A stretch of 64,000 nt of DNA from Roseicella frigidaeris (GTDB taxonomy: Bacteria; Pseudomonadota; Alphaproteobacteria; Acetobacterales; Acetobacteraceae), in contig NZ_QLIX01000009.1 of assembly GCF_003258945.1 (NCBI RefSeq), positions 82,399-146,398 of the forward strand, written 5' to 3'. This document shows, piece after piece, positions 19,391 to 61,824 of this stretch. Position 1 is the stretch's first letter, and each line of letters starts with the position of its first letter. The position numbers and the translations under genes are program-made. The notes beneath the pieces were generated by a model. It ran no database searches, was not told where the DNA came from, and saw nothing but the letters and a program-made list of their open reading frames with translations.

Positions 19391-19681
19391 ATGGGAGGCG
19401 ACGCAACCGCCGCGGGGCAGCCCGCGGCCCAAGGGGTCCAGGCCCCGTCCCTGCCCGACGAGGCGGCGCTCGCGGCGCACCTCGCGCATCGCCGGCGGCG
19501 CGCCTTCGATGCAGGGCTTTCCGCTGCCTGCTACTCGCAGGGCGTCAGGCTCGGCCTGATCGGCACGGCCCTGCCGCCCTGGCTGCCGACCGCGCCGCCC
19601 TGGGCGCGGCAGGCGATGCGGGCCGGCCATGCCAGCGGCCTCGCCATCGCCGGCGAGGGCGAGGCCCGCCCCGGCCGCTAG
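19391..19681 (+). CDS. Hypothetical protein, 96 aa
   Basis: Preceded by GGGAGG 4 nt before the ATG, a good ribosome binding site. The sequence is Ala-rich with a helical middle (LPDEAALAAHLAHRRRR) and ARQAMRAGHASGLAIAGEG near the end. No family recognised and no signal peptide. The stop TAG is the first three bases of repeat module B (TAGAGCAG), which supports this reading frame as the one adjusted to the element. Confidence 0.5.
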   Translation: MGGDATAAGQPAAQGVQAPSLPDEAALAAHLAHRRRRAFDAGLSAACYSQGVRLGLIGTALPPWLPTAPPWARQAMRAGHASGLAIAGEGEARPGR

Positions 19682-19745
19682 AGCAGGTCCCGATCAGGCG
19701 GACTCGCCTGATCGGGTGAAGGTGCTCTGAATACAGGAACCTAGG
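19679..19745. repeat. Dispersed palindromic module B, copy 1
   Basis: A 67-bp unit from TAGAGCAG to CCTAGG. The core stem CCCGATCAGGCG / CGCCTGATCGGG (19689-19716) has loop GACT, and an outer stem AGAGCA/TGCTCT (19680-19685 with 19723-19728) encloses it. The second copy at 35782-35848 has the same length and differs in the core stem by one paired change (CG to TA). It lies between convergent genes and its TAG is the stop of the gene to the left. Confidence 0.8.
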
Positions 19746-19819: not shown

Positions 19820-19831
19820 TCCAGTCGGAAC

Positions 19832-19948
19832 CGTCGCCCGTTGCCCTGCCGCGGCTTCGCCGCGGCAGGCTGTGACGCCCCCCTGGGCAGGAGGGGACTC
19901 CCTGGGGTCCCCGCAACGCCGCGACGCGGTTTCGGGGGGAGTCCTAAA
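19832..19948. repeat. Dispersed palindromic module A, copy 1
   Basis: Opens with GTCGCCCGTTGCCCTGCCG. An 11-bp perfect stem with loop TTC spans 19845-19869, then CTGTGACG, a GGGACTC-containing spacer, and a second, degenerate GGGTCCCC...GGTTTCGGGGGG hairpin. The far end abuts the TAG stop of the minus-strand gene at 19944. Related copies are at 31.1, 42.4 and 48.9 kb. Confidence 0.75.
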
Positions 19949-31089: not shown

Positions 31090-31211
31090 GGACCCGTCGC
31101 GGCCCGTCGTCCTGCCGCGGCTTCGCCGCGGCAGGCTGTGACGATCCCTGGGCAGAAGGGGACTCATGGGGCCCCACGAAGCCGCGAAGCGGTTTCGTGG
31201 GGAATATCCTA
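31090..31211. repeat. Dispersed palindromic module A, copy 2
   Basis: An 11-bp stem with loop TTC at 31111-31135 is identical to copy 1, followed by CTGTGACGATCCCTGGGCAG, a GGGACTCATGGGG spacer and a second hairpin at 31172-31202 (CCCCACGAA...TTCGTGGGG). It ends GAATATC at the TAG stop of the minus-strand SDR gene. It fills the gap between convergent genes. Confidence 0.8.
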
Positions 31212-31961
31212 CCGTCCGCCGCCCACCGGCAGCAGCGCGCCGCTGACATAGCTCGCCGCGTCGGAGAGCAGCCAGAGCACCGCCTCCGCCACCTCCTCGG
31301 CGCTGCCGCCGCGCCCGAGCGGCACGCCGGAGGCCATGCGTTCCACCCGGTCCGGCATGCCGGCATTGGCGTGCAGCTCGGTGTCGATCAGCCCGGGATT
31401 GACCGCGTTCACCCGGATGTTCCGCGGCCCGACCTCCCTGGCGAGGCCGATGGTGAGCGTGTCCACCGCGCCCTTGGTGGCGGCGTAGTGGATCCACTCG
31501 CCGGCGCCGCCGAGCGTCGAGGCGCGCGAGGAGACGTTCACGATCGACCCGCCCGGCGGCAGATGCGCCAGCGCCGCGCGGCAGCAGGCGGCGAGGCCGA
31601 GCACATTGGTGCGGAACACGCGCTCCCAGACAGCGTCCGTGCTCTCGCTGAGCAGCGCCTTCGGCCCGGTGATGCCGGCATTGTTCACCAGTGCGTCGAG
31701 CCGGCCGAAGCGGCCGAGCACCGCCGCGAAGCTGGCCGCGACCGCCTGCGGATCGCCGACATCGGCCTGCATCGCCAGCGCCGCCGCCCCGGCCGCCCGC
31801 ACCGCCGCCTCGGTCTCCGCCGCCCGCGCCGCGTTGCCGGCATGGGTGAAGGCGACGTCGTAGCCCCGCGCCGCCGCCAGCCGCACCACCGCGGCGCCGA
31901 TGCCGCGCCCGCCGCCGGTCACCAGCAGCACCTTCCGCGACGCTCCCTCCTGGTCTGGCAT
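31209..31961 (-). CDS. SDR family oxidoreductase
   Basis: Classical short-chain dehydrogenase of 250 residues. TGGGRGIG is at residues 15-22, NNAGIT at 93-98, Tyr159 and Lys163 in YAATK, with Ser144/145 upstream. The C-terminus ends SGALLPVGGGR. It resembles glucose 1-dehydrogenase relatives; the substrate is unknown. The ATG at 31961 has a purine-rich ribosome site (GGGAGGGG-like). It diverges from a Bug receptor gene 73 bp away. Confidence 0.9.
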   Translation of the reverse strand: MPDQEGASRKVLLVTGGGRGIGAAVVRLAAARGYDVAFTHAGNAARAAETEAAVRAAGAAALAMQADVGDPQAVAASFAAVLGRFGRLDALVNNAGITGPKALLSESTDAVWERVFRTNVLGLAACCRAALAHLPPGGSIVNVSSRASTLGGAGEWIHYAATKGAVDTLTIGLAREVGPRNIRVNAVNPGLIDTELHANAGMPDRVERMASGVPLGRGGSAEEVAEAVLWLLSDAASYVSGALLPVGGGR

Positions 31962-35781: not shown

Positions 35782-35848
35782 TAGAGCAGATCCCGATCAG
35801 GTGAACTCACCTGATCGGGTGAAGATGCCCTGAAAACAATAGCCTAGG
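35782..35848. repeat. Dispersed palindromic module B, copy 2
   Basis: A 67-bp unit like copy 1, opening TAGAGCAG and closing CCTAGG. The core stem is CCCGATCAGGTG / CACCTGATCGGG (35792-35819) with loop AACT. The stop codon of the minus-strand Bug gene (CTA at 35844-35846) lies within the closing CCTAGG. Compared with copy 1, one C-G pair of the stem has become T-A. Confidence 0.8.
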
Positions 35849-41240: not shown

Positions 41241-42356
41241 ATGGCGAAGAACGTCACCACCGGCCGGCCGGTGCCGGCGGAGAGCATCCGGGCGCAGATC
41301 CACGCCATCCTCACCGCCTGGGGCATGCCGGAGGAGCATGCGGCCACCACCGCCGGGGTGATGGTCGAGACCGACCTGATGGGTGTCGACAGCCACGGCC
41401 TCTCGATGCTGATGACCTACGAGGAGGGCGTGCGCGCCGGCCGGCTGCAGATGCAGGCGCGGCCGCGCGTCGCCCGCGACACCGGGCCGACGGCGCTGCT
41501 CGATGCCGGGAATGGCCTCGGCCATCCCGTCTCGGCGCTCGCCATGGGCATGGCGGTGGACAAGGCGCTGCAATACGGCATCGGCGTGGTCGGGGTGGTG
41601 AACAGCCACCATTTCGGCGCCGCCGGCGCCTATGCCCGGATGGCGGCGGCGCGCGGCGTCATCGGCCTCGTCACCAGCTCGGCCCAGGGCATCACCATGG
41701 TGCCGACCCGCGCCGCCATGCCGGTGCTCGGCACCAACCCCCTCGCCTTCGCCGCGCCGGCCGGGCGCAACAAGCCCTTCGTGCTGGACATGGCGACGAC
41801 CACCGTCGCCGCCGGCAAGGTGAAGGTGCACCACCTGAACGACGCCTCCCTGCCGCCGGGCTGGGTGGTGGACGGCACCGGGCAGACCGTCACCGACCCG
41901 CATGAGGGCAATGCCTATGTCTTCCAGCGCAAGGAGGGCGGCATCACCCCGCTCGGCGGCACGGAGAGCCAGGGCAGCGCCAAGGGCTACGGCCTCGCCA
42001 TGATGGTGCACATCCTCGGCGGCGCGCTGACCGGCGCCGCCTTCTCGCCGATCCACAAGCGGACATGGACGCCGGACAAGCCGCAGAATATCGGCCATTT
42101 CTTCCTCGCCCTCGATCCGCGCGCCTTCCGCGAGGAGGGCGAGTTCGAGGCCGAGCTCGACAGCATCCTCGACGTGCTGCACGCGACGCCGCCGGCCGAT
42201 CCGGCCGAGCCGGTGCTGGTGCCGGGCGAGCCGGAGGACGTCATGCGCGCCAGGCGCCTGGCCGAGGGCGTGCCGGTGCCGGACTCGCTCGATGCGCTGA
42301 TCCGCGGCATCTGCGAGCGCAGCGGCGCGCCCTATCTGCTGCGGCCGAATGGATAG
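41241..42356 (+). CDS. Ldh family (malate/L-lactate/ureidoglycolate-type) oxidoreductase
   Basis: NAD(P)-dependent 2-hydroxyacid dehydrogenase of the type II malate/lactate dehydrogenase family, 371 residues. The catalytic His is at about 52 in MGVDSHGLSM, NSHHFGAAGAYARMA binds cofactor, and LGTNPLAFAAPAG and LDMATTTVAAGKV are family motifs. QGSAKGYGLAMMVHILGG lies near the end. AGGAGG is 8 nt upstream. It stands alone, followed by repeat modules A, D and C. Confidence 0.93.
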   Translation: MAKNVTTGRPVPAESIRAQIHAILTAWGMPEEHAATTAGVMVETDLMGVDSHGLSMLMTYEEGVRAGRLQMQARPRVARDTGPTALLDAGNGLGHPVSALAMGMAVDKALQYGIGVVGVVNSHHFGAAGAYARMAAARGVIGLVTSSAQGITMVPTRAAMPVLGTNPLAFAAPAGRNKPFVLDMATTTVAAGKVKVHHLNDASLPPGWVVDGTGQTVTDPHEGNAYVFQRKEGGITPLGGTESQGSAKGYGLAMMVHILGGALTGAAFSPIHKRTWTPDKPQNIGHFFLALDPRAFREEGEFEAELDSILDVLHATPPADPAEPVLVPGEPEDVMRARRLAEGVPVPDSLDALIRGICERSGAPYLLRPNG

Positions 42357-42357
42357 T

Positions 42358-42520
42358 GTTCCCCACGAAGCCGCTGCGCGCCGTCGCGGGGGCCCCGGAT
42401 TCATCCCCACGAAGCCGCTGCGCGTCTTCGTGGGGGCCCCGGGATTCGCAGCAGGGGTGAGGCGCGTCACAGCCTGCCGCGACGAAGCCGCGGCAGGGCA
42501 ACGGGCGGCGACGGTTTCGG
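42358..42520. repeat. Dispersed palindromic module A, copy 3 (inverted, with doubled end hairpin)
   Basis: Two consecutive CCCCACGAAGCCGCTGCGCG hairpins (near 42361 and 42408) are followed by a CCTGCCGCG...CGCGGCAGG stem (near 42472-42497, loop region GACGAAGC). The element begins 1-5 nt after the TAG stop of the Ldh-type gene. The doubling of the end hairpin is unique to this copy. Confidence 0.75.
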
Positions 42521-42530
42521 CAGGCGGCCT

Positions 42531-42633
42531 GGAGCGTGATCGCCTGAGGCGGAATTACCGAAGGCGTGAATCACGCGATCAAACAAGGGCCAGGACCATG
42601 ATCCGCGACGCTGTGTGAGCGGATCGTGGCCTA
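42531..42633. repeat. Modules D and C between the Ldh-type gene and the HD gene
   Basis: Module D: CGTGATCGCCTGAGG (42535-42549) matches 10305-10319 inverted; TGATCGC also pairs with GCGATCA about 35 nt on. Module C: CCATGATCCGC (42596-42606) pairs with GCGGATCGTGG (42619-42629), one mismatch. The CTA at 42631-42633, directly after module C, is the stop of the minus-strand HD gene. Confidence 0.65.
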
Positions 42634-46438: not shown

Positions 46439-47689
46439 ATGAGCCTCAACCAGACCCGCCATATCCGCCTGACCTCGCATCCCGAGCCCCAGGCCCATCG
46501 CTGGCAGATCACCTGGGGGGCGGCGACGCCGGCGGCGCGCGGGCCGGTCATCGGCTCGGTCACCCGGCCGGGCGACCGCAACGTCATCGGCACCCATGGC
46601 GGCTCCTATTCCCTCTACCGGGCGCTGGCCGTCTCGGCCGGCGCGCTCTCGCCGCTGCAGCGGCCGGACCTCGCCAACACCCATCCGGTGACGGCCATCG
46701 GCCCCCATCCGCAATGGAGCGAGGCGGGGCGCATCGTCTCCCTCGACCCCTGGGGGCATGTGGTGGGCGAGGCCTTCGGGGAGGCCATCGGCGAGGGCAT
46801 CGACATCCGCCCGACCATCGCCATCACCCGGGCGCGGCTGAACATGGCCGAGCTGAACGCCCTGCTGGCGACGGGCGCGCTGAAGCCGGATGGCCGCGTG
46901 CTGCATCCGGGCGGCGACGTCTCGGTCACCAAGGCGGCGATCGACCCGGTCTGGTGGCTGCCCGGCATCGCCGAGCGCTTCGGCACCGCCGAGCACGACC
47001 TGCGCCGCGTCCTCTTCGAGCAGACCGGGGGGATGTATCCCGAGCTGGTGACGCGGCCCGACCTCTCGGTCTTCCTGCCGCCCATCGGCGGCATCAGCGT
47101 CTACATCTTCGGCGACCCGGCGCATCTGGCGGACCGGCGGGTGCCGCTGACCTGCCGCGTGCATGACGAGTGCAACGGCTCCGACGTCTTCGGCTCCGAC
47201 ATCTGCACCTGCCGCCCCTATCTCATCCACGGCATCGAGGAGAGCCTGCGCGCGGCGCAGGAGGGCGGGGTCGGCCTCGTCGTCTACAACCGCAAGGAAG
47301 GCAGGGCGCTCGGCGAGGTCACGAAATTCCTCGTCTACAACGCCCGCAAGCGGCAGCAGGGCGGCGACCAGGCCGCCACCTATTTCGAGCGCACGGAATG
47401 CGTCGCCGGGGTGCAGGATGCGCGCTTCCAGCAGCTCATGCCGGATGTGCTGCACTGGCTCGGCATCACCCGCATCCACCGCCTCGTCTCCATGTCCAAC
47501 ATGAAGCACGACGCCATGGTCGAGCAGGGCATCGAGATCGGCGAGCGGGTACCGATCCCGCCCGACCGCATCCCGCCCGATGCCTCGGTCGAGATCGAGG
47601 CCAAGAAGGCGGCCGGCTACTACGCGCCGGAGGTGCCGGACGAGGCCGCCCTGAAGCGCACCATCGGCCGCGCCCTGGGGGAGATGTGA
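46439..47689 (+). CDS. GTP cyclohydrolase II homolog, uracil-catabolism (URC1) type
   Basis: A 416-residue protein with a RibA-like catalytic domain from about residue 235. The zinc cysteines are C245, C256 and C258, spaced as in RibA, followed by VGLVVYNRKEGRALGEVTKF. The extra N-terminal domain (about 200 residues, from SHPEPQAHRWQITWGAATPA) and the immediately following URC4/urg3-type gene point to URC1 of the uracil catabolism pathway known from yeast and bacteria, rather than riboflavin synthesis. GTGA overlap with the next gene. Pathway assignment rests on the gene pair. Confidence 0.85.
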   Translation: MSLNQTRHIRLTSHPEPQAHRWQITWGAATPAARGPVIGSVTRPGDRNVIGTHGGSYSLYRALAVSAGALSPLQRPDLANTHPVTAIGPHPQWSEAGRIVSLDPWGHVVGEAFGEAIGEGIDIRPTIAITRARLNMAELNALLATGALKPDGRVLHPGGDVSVTKAAIDPVWWLPGIAERFGTAEHDLRRVLFEQTGGMYPELVTRPDLSVFLPPIGGISVYIFGDPAHLADRRVPLTCRVHDECNGSDVFGSDICTCRPYLIHGIEESLRAAQEGGVGLVVYNRKEGRALGEVTKFLVYNARKRQQGGDQAATYFERTECVAGVQDARFQQLMPDVLHWLGITRIHRLVSMSNMKHDAMVEQGIEIGERVPIPPDRIPPDASVEIEAKKAAGYYAPEVPDEAALKRTIGRALGEM

Positions 47690-48915
47690 CGCCGGCGCAG
47701 GCGGCCGCCGCGGCGCTGCTGACGCCGGAGGCGGTGCGCGAACGCGCCGCCGAGCTGTATGCGCTCGGCCTGGAGGATGGGCTGCAGGCCTGGCATCTGC
47801 GGCCGGAGCGCCTCGATGCGGCGGCCGATCTGGTGGCGGCGGTGGTGCGGGACCGCTATCCCGACCTGCGGGTGCCGCCGCACACCCGCTGGCGGCACCT
47901 GCTGCCGGACGGGCTCAGCACCCTCGCCCTGATCGCCGCGCGGCTCGACCAGGATCCGGCGGCGCTGCTGCGGGCGCGGATGGACCTCATCACCCTCTCC
48001 GTCCTGCTCGATGCCGGCGCGGGGATGGGCTGGCGCTACATCGACCTCGAGACGGGCCACTGCCACACGCGCTCCGAGGGCCTCGCCATGGCGAGCCTCG
48101 CCATGTTCGCCCGCGGCGACTTCGCCGATGACGGCCATTCCCTGCGGGCCGACGCGGCCCGGCTCGCCGGCATGACGGAGGAGGCGCTGGGCCGCGGCTT
48201 CCAGGCCGGGCCGGACAACCCGCTGGCCGGGCTGGAGGGCCGGGCGGCGCTGCTCCGCCGCCTCGGCGAGACCATGGCGGCGGCGCCCGCGGTGTTCGGC
48301 CAGGTCTATCCGCCGCGGCCGAGCGGGCTGATCGACGGGCTCACCGCGGAGATCGCCGAGGGCGCCCTCCCGGCGCGCGCGATCCTCATCGCCCTGCTGC
48401 GGCATCTCGGCCCGATCTGGCCCGGGCGCGCGGTGCTGGAGGGCGTCGAGCTCGGCGATTGCTGGCGGCATCCGGGCATCCGCCGGGCCGATGCGACCAA
48501 TGGCCTCATCCCCTTCCACAAGCTCTCGCAATGGCTGGCCTATTCCCTGATCGAGACGCTGGAGGACAGCGGCATCCGGGTCACCGGCCTCGAGGCGCTG
48601 ACCGGCCTGGCGGAATACCGCAATGGCGGGCTTTTCCTCGATATGGGGGTGATCGAGCCGCGCGATCCGGCGCTGCTCGAGGCCGAGCATGCGCCGGGCG
48701 ATGTCGCCATCGTCGAATGGCGGGCGCTGACCGTCGCGCTGCTCGATGCCATCGCGCCGCGGGTGCGGGCGCGGCTCGGGCTGGACGAGGCGGCCTTCCC
48801 GCTGGTCCGCGTGCTGGAGGGCGGCACCTGGTGGGCCGGCCGCCGCCTCGCCCGCGAGCGGCGCGCCGATGGCGGCCCGCCCTTGCGCATCGTCAGCGAC
48901 GGCACGGTCTTCTAG
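47686..48915 (+). CDS. URC4/urg3 family protein (DUF1688)
   Basis: A 409-residue protein starting at a GTG that overlaps the URC1-type stop. Distinctive segments are VPPHTRWRHLLPDGL, ARMDLITLSVLLDAGAGMGW, YIDLETGHCHTRSEGLAMAS, DCWRHPGIRRADATNGLIPF and TGLAEYRNGGLFLDMGVIEP, typical of DUF1688. In the yeast URC pathway it is required for uracil use as nitrogen source; its reaction is not settled. A URC6-type phosphoribosyltransferase was not seen in the window. The stop TAG touches repeat module A. Confidence 0.9.
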   Translation: MTPAQAAAAALLTPEAVRERAAELYALGLEDGLQAWHLRPERLDAAADLVAAVVRDRYPDLRVPPHTRWRHLLPDGLSTLALIAARLDQDPAALLRARMDLITLSVLLDAGAGMGWRYIDLETGHCHTRSEGLAMASLAMFARGDFADDGHSLRADAARLAGMTEEALGRGFQAGPDNPLAGLEGRAALLRRLGETMAAAPAVFGQVYPPRPSGLIDGLTAEIAEGALPARAILIALLRHLGPIWPGRAVLEGVELGDCWRHPGIRRADATNGLIPFHKLSQWLAYSLIETLEDSGIRVTGLEALTGLAEYRNGGLFLDMGVIEPRDPALLEAEHAPGDVAIVEWRALTVALLDAIAPRVRARLGLDEAAFPLVRVLEGGTWWAGRRLARERRADGGPPLRIVSDGTVF

Positions 48916-49045
48916 TATTCCCCACGACGTCGCTGCGCGCCGTCGCGGGGGCCCCGGGATTCGCTTCTGACCCTTGGTCCGTCACGGCCTGCCGCGGCCA
49001 AGCCGCGGCGGGCAACGGGGGGCGACGGTATCGAGGCGTGCCGCG
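48916..49045. repeat. Dispersed palindromic module A, copy 4 (inverted)
   Basis: TATTCCCCACGACGTCGCTG follows the TAG stop of the URC4-type gene directly. GCGGGGGCCCCGGG, a CCTGCCGCGGCCAAGCCGCGG-type stem (near 48987-49009; written here in two pieces, CCTGCCGCGG and CCGCGGCGGG), and GGGGGGCGACGG follow, as in the other copies. It lies between convergent genes. Confidence 0.7.
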
Positions 49046-61651: not shown

Positions 61652-61716
61652 ATGACGATGCGGACCACGTGGCCGCGTCACGCGCATCACCACGCGGCCG
61701 CGCGACGTTCTTGACC

Positions 61717-61824
61717 GCGCGGCCAAGCCGCTTTTCTCCGCGCGGCCGAGCCGCTTTTCTCCGCGCGGCCGAGCTATTTTTCTCCCGCGCGGCCGAGCCA
61801 TTTTTCTCCCGCGCGGCCGAGCCG
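61717..61824 (+). repeat. Tandem array of terminator-like hairpin units
   Basis: Four units of 23-24 bp plus a partial fifth: 61717-61739, 61740-61762, 61763-61786, 61787-61810 and 61811-61824. Each begins GCGCGGCC(G/A)AGC. Units 1 and 2 contain GCGGC-NNN-GCCGC followed by TTTTC, a minimal terminator. Units 3 and 4 have a longer T-run (ATTTTTC) but a shorter stem, and the last has the stem without T's. The 405-bp gap holding the array has no gene I can support. Confidence 0.7.

Follow-up and report, generated by a model that had tools for sequence, protein, structure and literature searches.

The genome of Roseicella frigidaeris (G000, 5.82 Mb) carries a dispersed family of double-hairpin elements, confirmed as real and not due to chance, whose placement rule is a position directly past a stop codon; this rule is stronger than that of a location in gaps between convergent genes. 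The element is addressed to one gene end, where its second hairpin can be multiplied. With a likelihood somewhat short of even, it represents a lineage-specific REP-like dispersed repeat that acts as a 3'-end module for the gene with the adjacent stop.

The window, i.e., the whole stretch of 64,000 nt that was analysed, contains four copies at 19.8, 31.1, 42.4, and 48.9 kb. All four had been pointed out, in both orientations, by an earlier examination of the letters alone (the sequence-only reading), and two indeed lie on the plus strand and two on the minus strand. The element, about 110 nt long, consists of a first hairpin (H1), CTGTGACG, a variable linker, GGGGCCCC, and a second hairpin (H2). 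In the H1-to-H2 direction, the consensus is CCGTCGCCnCCCGTTGCCC, H1 (TGCCGCGGC TTC GCCGCGGCA), GGCTGTGACG, a variable linker of ~25 nt, GGGGCCCC, a 31-nt H2, and A, with a near-invariant GTTG ahead of H1. Element fragments with H2 at the standard place measure 113-116 nt (71 of 83 copies). The units found in the window are the following:

19825-19940, plus strand: copy 1, with H1 at 19845-19869 and a degenerate H2 at about 19909-19939; covariance model score 88.0 bits; 4 nt from its end to the stop codon (CTA, 19944-19946) of a minus-strand gene.
31091-31203, plus strand: copy 2, the one named in the sequence-only reading, with H1 at 31111-31135 and H2 at 31172-31202; 112.2 bits; its end is 6 nt from the CTA (31209-31211) with which the minus-strand gene 31209-31961 stops.
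42404-42517, minus strand: copy 3, with H1 at 42473-42497 and a first H2 at 42405-42435; 118.4 bits.
42361-42391, minus strand: additional H2 of copy 3 on the side of the stop, absent from the sequence-only reading; begins 4 nt past the TAG (42354-42356) that closes the plus-strand gene 41241-42356.
48919-49031, minus strand: copy 4, with H1 at about 48988-49011 and H2 at 48920-48950; 107.9 bits; H2 begins 4 nt past the TAG (48913-48915) at which the plus-strand gene 47686-48915 stops.

The stem of H1 comprises 11 bp. A common first hairpin with a TTC loop, as initially proposed, is present in three of these copies, whereas the loop of the 48.9-kb copy is TTG; the latter also has CCGTGACG in place of the CTGTGACG found exactly in the three others. 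Similarly, the CCCCACGAA/TTCGTGGGG arms attributed to the second hairpin are exact only in the 31.1-kb copy and in the H1-proximal H2 of the 42.4-kb copy, while H2 is variant at 48.9 kb and degenerate at 19.8 kb. Near copy 3, at about 42532-42628, the window also contains a third palindrome (AGAGCGTGATCGC...CACGCGATCAAA), absent from the orthologous site of the sister species G003, the other rich carrier.

The description of the copies as dispersed REP-like palindromes is borne out by genome-wide counts. A 31-nt H1 core (up to 3 mismatches) gives 86 matches in G000 against 0 for the reversed-pattern control, and the covariance model gives at least 142 matches at E<=0.01 among 150 candidates scored. 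Applied to 1.59 Mb of sequence from other bacteria (80 loci), the same model gives no match at E<=0.01 and two at E values of 0.1 and 0.21. The CCCCACGAA pattern with one mismatch is not above chance in the window (9 matches for 15 expected), so that this short motif proves nothing by itself and it is the whole element that does. An Rfam scan of the window returned only a tRNA above the gathering threshold, with 14-bit sub-threshold matches at 42.3-42.6 kb. A 30-mer with one N found no exact match in viral contigs, one element copy used as query found none in plasmids, and literature searches, in which few subscription journals were covered, led to no described family recognisable as the double-hairpin element. 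Two other repeats were noticed in the window. A second, unrelated palindromic repeat (TAGAGCAGATCCCGATCAGGTGGACTCACCTGATCGGG) lies at 19679-19716 and 35782-35819, with 85 genome matches (up to 3 mismatches) versus 0 in the reversed control; in the copy at 19679, the upstream gene stops at the TAG of the repeat itself. At 61715-61809, a 23-24-nt unit (CCGCGCGGCCGAGCCGCTTTTCTCC) is repeated four times in tandem.

The relation to genes was established from calls made by a simple codon-model script on the examined stretches, which were chosen around copies; by these calls, all H2-scan matches in the stretches are intergenic. The gene context was examined for 83 copies of G000; the 71 whose GGGG end fell within the expected range were aligned and fold-tested. 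The gene on the H2 side is oriented into the element in 81 of the 83. That on the H1 side is convergent in 47 cases and tandem in 33; two copies are reversed in a tandem gap, both of which may be gene-calling errors, and one has no called neighbour. The expected orientation exceeds the reversed one by 33 to 2 in tandem gaps, and divergent gaps hold no copy. Stop distances were taken for 69 of the 71 aligned copies, those with the H2-side gene pointing in. The H2 end is directly 1-8 nt from the stop in 53 of them, and in a further 14 this position is occupied by the last of one or two extra H2 units or by the H2 of a second element, the number of H2 units at a gene end being sometimes two or three. 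Some H2, extra units included, is therefore found at 1-8 nt in 67 of the 69 copies; the remaining two stand 14 and 17 nt from the stop, with the second H2 arm only as remnants. As both orientation (81/83) and spacing (67/69) follow one gene, the unit is addressed to a single gene end. The spacer between stop and H2 is T-rich, with T frequencies of 0.35, 0.33, 0.25, 0.27, and 0.25 at +1 to +5, compared with 0.16, 0.05, 0.08, 0.09, and 0.10 at other gene ends.

The sequence-only reading placed all copies between convergent genes. This is correct for the four window copies but does not extend to the genome, in which 33 of the 80 copies that have both neighbours called and are either convergent or tandem belong to the tandem class, nor beyond the host, 11 of 12 copies in other genera being tandem, and a convergent-only placement is thereby ruled out. 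The lack of convergent enrichment that the same reading had named as contrary evidence was not observed either: in the examined stretches, themselves chosen around copies, convergent ends make up 52 of 84 gene ends with an adjacent H2 and 152 of 378 without one (odds ratio 2.4, p 0.0004). This enrichment and the stable stems speak for its idea of a hairpin-only or bidirectional terminator parting convergent transcripts, as does one convergent junction (L070:9870-10129) where two head-to-head copies each stand at their own stop. We nevertheless regard such a terminator as improbable, given the tandem copies and an orientation that tracks one gene only. Moreover, no U-tract or T-rich stretch follows H1 or H2 on either strand, hence the element is not a classical intrinsic terminator; the T-rich stretch is the stop-to-H2 spacer, ahead of the hairpin in the sense direction. 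Nor is it a general terminator, since only about 2-3% of genes have a copy.

A hairpin a few nucleotides past the stop is likewise found with some REPs of Escherichia coli. Those within 15 nt of a stop are reported to cause ribosome stalling (PMC12306157; PMC5082802), and the accounts consulted present them as a minority (446 of 4,072 in PMC12306157; 260 of 496 in an earlier study cited there), whereas here nearly all copies are concerned, 67 of 69 having a hairpin at 1-8 nt, well under the 15-nt limit of these accounts. By analogy, H2 might act as a translation brake that stalls the terminating ribosome and lowers gene output. This appears unlikely, as the abutting genes are very varied and H1 would be left without a role. 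An SDR-like C-terminal motif occurs in 6 of 80 abutting genes versus 21 of 699 others (p 0.049, uncorrected), and in combination with YxxxK in 5 versus 12 (p 0.023, uncorrected).

The pairing of the hairpins is demonstrably maintained through compensatory changes. In the 71-copy alignment, 98.5% of the cells are paired and 58 are double-change cells, compared with 15.9 in shuffles, none of 500 shuffles being as high; sliding the partner columns by 1 to 3 brings pairing down to 26-59%. H2 is both the most variable and the most compensating part. Read on the H1-to-H2 strand, 55 of the 71 copies have C(GNA)G as a triloop apex of H2 and 3 have C(GNRA)G as a tetraloop, the apex of the other 13 being of another kind; in G003, the C(GNA)G apex is found in 55 of 60 copies. 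Triloops of the C(GNA)G type form very stable DNA mini-hairpins.

Folding of H2 favours the H1-to-H2 strand, antisense with respect to the abutting gene: this strand gives the more stable H2 in 57 of the 71 copies and the less stable one in 3, with fold medians of -23.1 kcal/mol antisense versus -19.6 kcal/mol sense. In G003, the antisense strand is better in 51 of 60 copies and worse in 3, while H1 displays no clear strand preference. The preference of H2 is equal in convergent (41) and tandem (29) sites, which weakens the case for a terminator serving the far, convergent gene. It does not reveal selection on the antisense strand: the changes between orthologs, 33 G.U to 11 A.C over all pairs (p 0.001), lose this signal once four commonly G.U pairs are excluded (2 to 6 in H2 and 11 to 2 in H1, or 13 to 8 together, p 0.38). 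The asymmetry of H2 was mostly inherited from the founder, three H2 pairs being commonly G.U. Stability alone is no sign of function, since other gene ends of this GC-rich genome fold strongly too (median for the 50 nt past the stop, sense strand, of -22.25 kcal/mol versus -23.05 kcal/mol with the element). As regards replication, 25 of 48 copies are on the G-rich strand (p 0.89), and skew is uninformative here since the genes themselves are so in 353 of 740 cases.

The strand asymmetry of H2 is the strongest point in support of a process acting on a DNA strand. The main rival to the 3'-end module is a non-autonomous selfish element of REP- or MITE-like type, with hairpins that would be recognised as single-stranded DNA on one strand; its copies would survive past stops since insertion there is harmless. 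This explanation is possible, if rather doubtful. A preference of the same strength in convergent and tandem sites fits a DNA-strand process better than it does transcription from the far neighbour, but an asymmetry mostly derived from the founder weighs less in its favour, and mere tolerance fails to predict either the 1-8 nt spacing or the 33-to-2 orientation.

RIME elements of rhizobia, which are short and intergenic with two large palindromes, resemble the double-hairpin element in description. In E. coli, gyrase and IHF bind to dispersed palindromes, and a protein-binding or nucleoid role can be conceived by analogy; it is very improbable, as it leaves the stop-codon spacing unexplained. 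With REP/BIME sequences of gammaproteobacteria, the family shares more than 100 extragenic palindromes located 3' of genes, in which complementary changes keep pairing. The differences are two distinct hairpins in fixed order, a stop-codon-locked position, and a GTTG head instead of the GT(A/G)G given for REP palindromes (PMC2817692), although the resemblance of both heads is a point in favour of the selfish element. The REP-associated tyrosine transposase (RAYT) whose search had been suggested was not found: PF01797 (Y1/RAYT) has no match in G000 or G003, draft genomes 98% complete, while 5 of 14 control genomes gave matches. Without PF01797 in both rich carriers and with GTTG as head, the element is not classed as a RAYT-associated REP, for which RAYT genes flanked by repeats are a criterion along with many extragenic palindromic copies per genome, the latter alone being found here. 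The element-free G004, of the same genus, has a Y1 transposase (PF01797, 101.8 bits; L252, L253), and this combination likewise counts against the selfish element, as does the absence of PF01797 from the two rich carriers. As regards the terminal inverted repeats and target-site duplication typical of MITEs, each hairpin is internal, and no duplication is visible in the few empty-site alignments looked at. The nearest alphaproteobacterial analogues found are Br-REP1 and Br-REP2 of Bradyrhizobium, multi-palindrome 3'-UTR repeats limited to a lineage, one of which was first seen between convergent genes (PMC5082802); their sequence differs, and the description compared gives no stop-codon rule.

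CarB matches indicate Acetobacteraceae as the family of the host, the best being 80% to a MAG, with Acidocella aquatica at 77%. Among 39 genomes (G000 and relatives, 96 candidates scored in each), the covariance model recognises the element only in G000 and G003, with one weak match in G019. The congeners G001, G002, and G004 have no match among their 96 candidates, which makes two rich members out of five in the genus. A 30-nt core (up to 2 mismatches) finds responses in five of 397 genomes of the family, with counts of 63 in G000, 110 in G003, 6 in G082, 5 in G156, and 1 in G408. This patchy spread, with few copies in another genus, suits a selfish element. The stop-codon rule is found again in G003, for which 60 of at least 74 matches were sampled, best scores first among the matches listed: 59 of the 60 copies are 3' of a gene, and tandem gaps show the expected orientation by 21 to 1. 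Their distance to the stop is 1-8 nt in 45 and 9 nt in one, and five more reach the stop via extra H2 units; two show H2 remnants, and in three (L223, L244, L247), the third palindrome (AGAGCGTGATCGC...CACGCGATCAAA) separates H2 from the stop called for the abutting gene. The exceptions without stop-hugging are L205, L215, L217, and L219. In the two genera besides that of the host (G082, G156, G408), 12 of 16 distinct places at E below 1e-5 were taken, the others being upstream units (two in the L256 array, one in L264) and an H2-less copy in L263. All 12 are 3' of a gene. The stop is 2-6 nt away in seven; in three, where a second H2 can be seen, the distance is 48-50 nt; of the last two, one stands 20 nt from the stop and the other overlaps a gene call. 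The L256 array of G082 (1300-1732) is made of three head-to-tail H1 units with a spacing of ~158 nt, then two H2 units, at one gene end.

Of the 60 sampled G003 copies, 35 were matched to G000 sequence and 28 were aligned on both sides. G000 shares the copy at 24 of these 28 sites, including L223 paired with L034:6411, has it facing the opposite gene at two (L207, L217), and lacks it at two (L202, L222). At L207, the copy hugs its own stop in each species, and at L217, the full G003 copy is not stop-hugging and an H2-like relic is retained at the first stop. The G000 ortholog of L202 (C17, L034), devoid of the element, has an unrelated GC-rich palindrome directly after the stop of the upstream gene. 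We infer that the copies arose through dispersal in an ancestor common to G000 and G003. Across 29 ortholog pairs, with the ambiguous pair L235 set aside when changes were counted, identity reaches 92% in H1, 85% in H2, and 72% in the linker, compared with 82% in the nearby gene end, and nine double changes lead from one Watson-Crick pair to another. The gains, losses, and side switches agree with a selfish element, whereas compensatory change at orthologous sites argues against it, although gene conversion between copies could mimic this. At the 31.1-kb site of G003, the 5' arm of H1 is lost and H2 is kept with compensatory differences, and in the least-retained case, the G003 ortholog of L054:3157, only the stop-proximal H2 remains. 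At the element-free sites of G004 (48.9 kb) and G001 (L044:9963), the stop codon is in the identical place; protein ends are thus unchanged with or without the element.

For the 3'-end module, the mRNA of the abutting gene would present in order the stop, the short T-rich spacer, H2, the linker, and H1. Folding of the GC-rich stems would follow the departure of the terminating ribosome and put a barrier in the way of 3'-to-5' exonucleases; transcripts with ends further downstream, for instance through Rho action, would then be shortened as far as H2 or H1. Such proximity of a hairpin to the stop may, in addition, delay the ribosome at termination, an effect reported for REPs of E. coli within 15 nt of a stop. 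The antisense-stable H2 counts against a function in the sense mRNA because such a function does not predict an antisense bias. Alternatively, and with rather little likelihood, the stop-codon lock could be the signature of a mechanism and not of selection on random insertions. A process reading the ends of translation or transcription would then place or copy the element at the 3' ends of genes, or H2 and H1 would be landing sites of a factor controlling termination or 3'-end processing in a regulon of ~150 genes.

REP-like repeats are usually described merely as lying somewhere downstream of genes. The present family is large, its spacing and orientation are locked to stop codons, and it occurs in species of at least three genera, which raises the question of how such a placement arises. 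About a hundred natural orthologous pairs with and without the element offer a way to address the effect of a post-stop hairpin on ribosomes, RNA ends, and neighbouring transcription.
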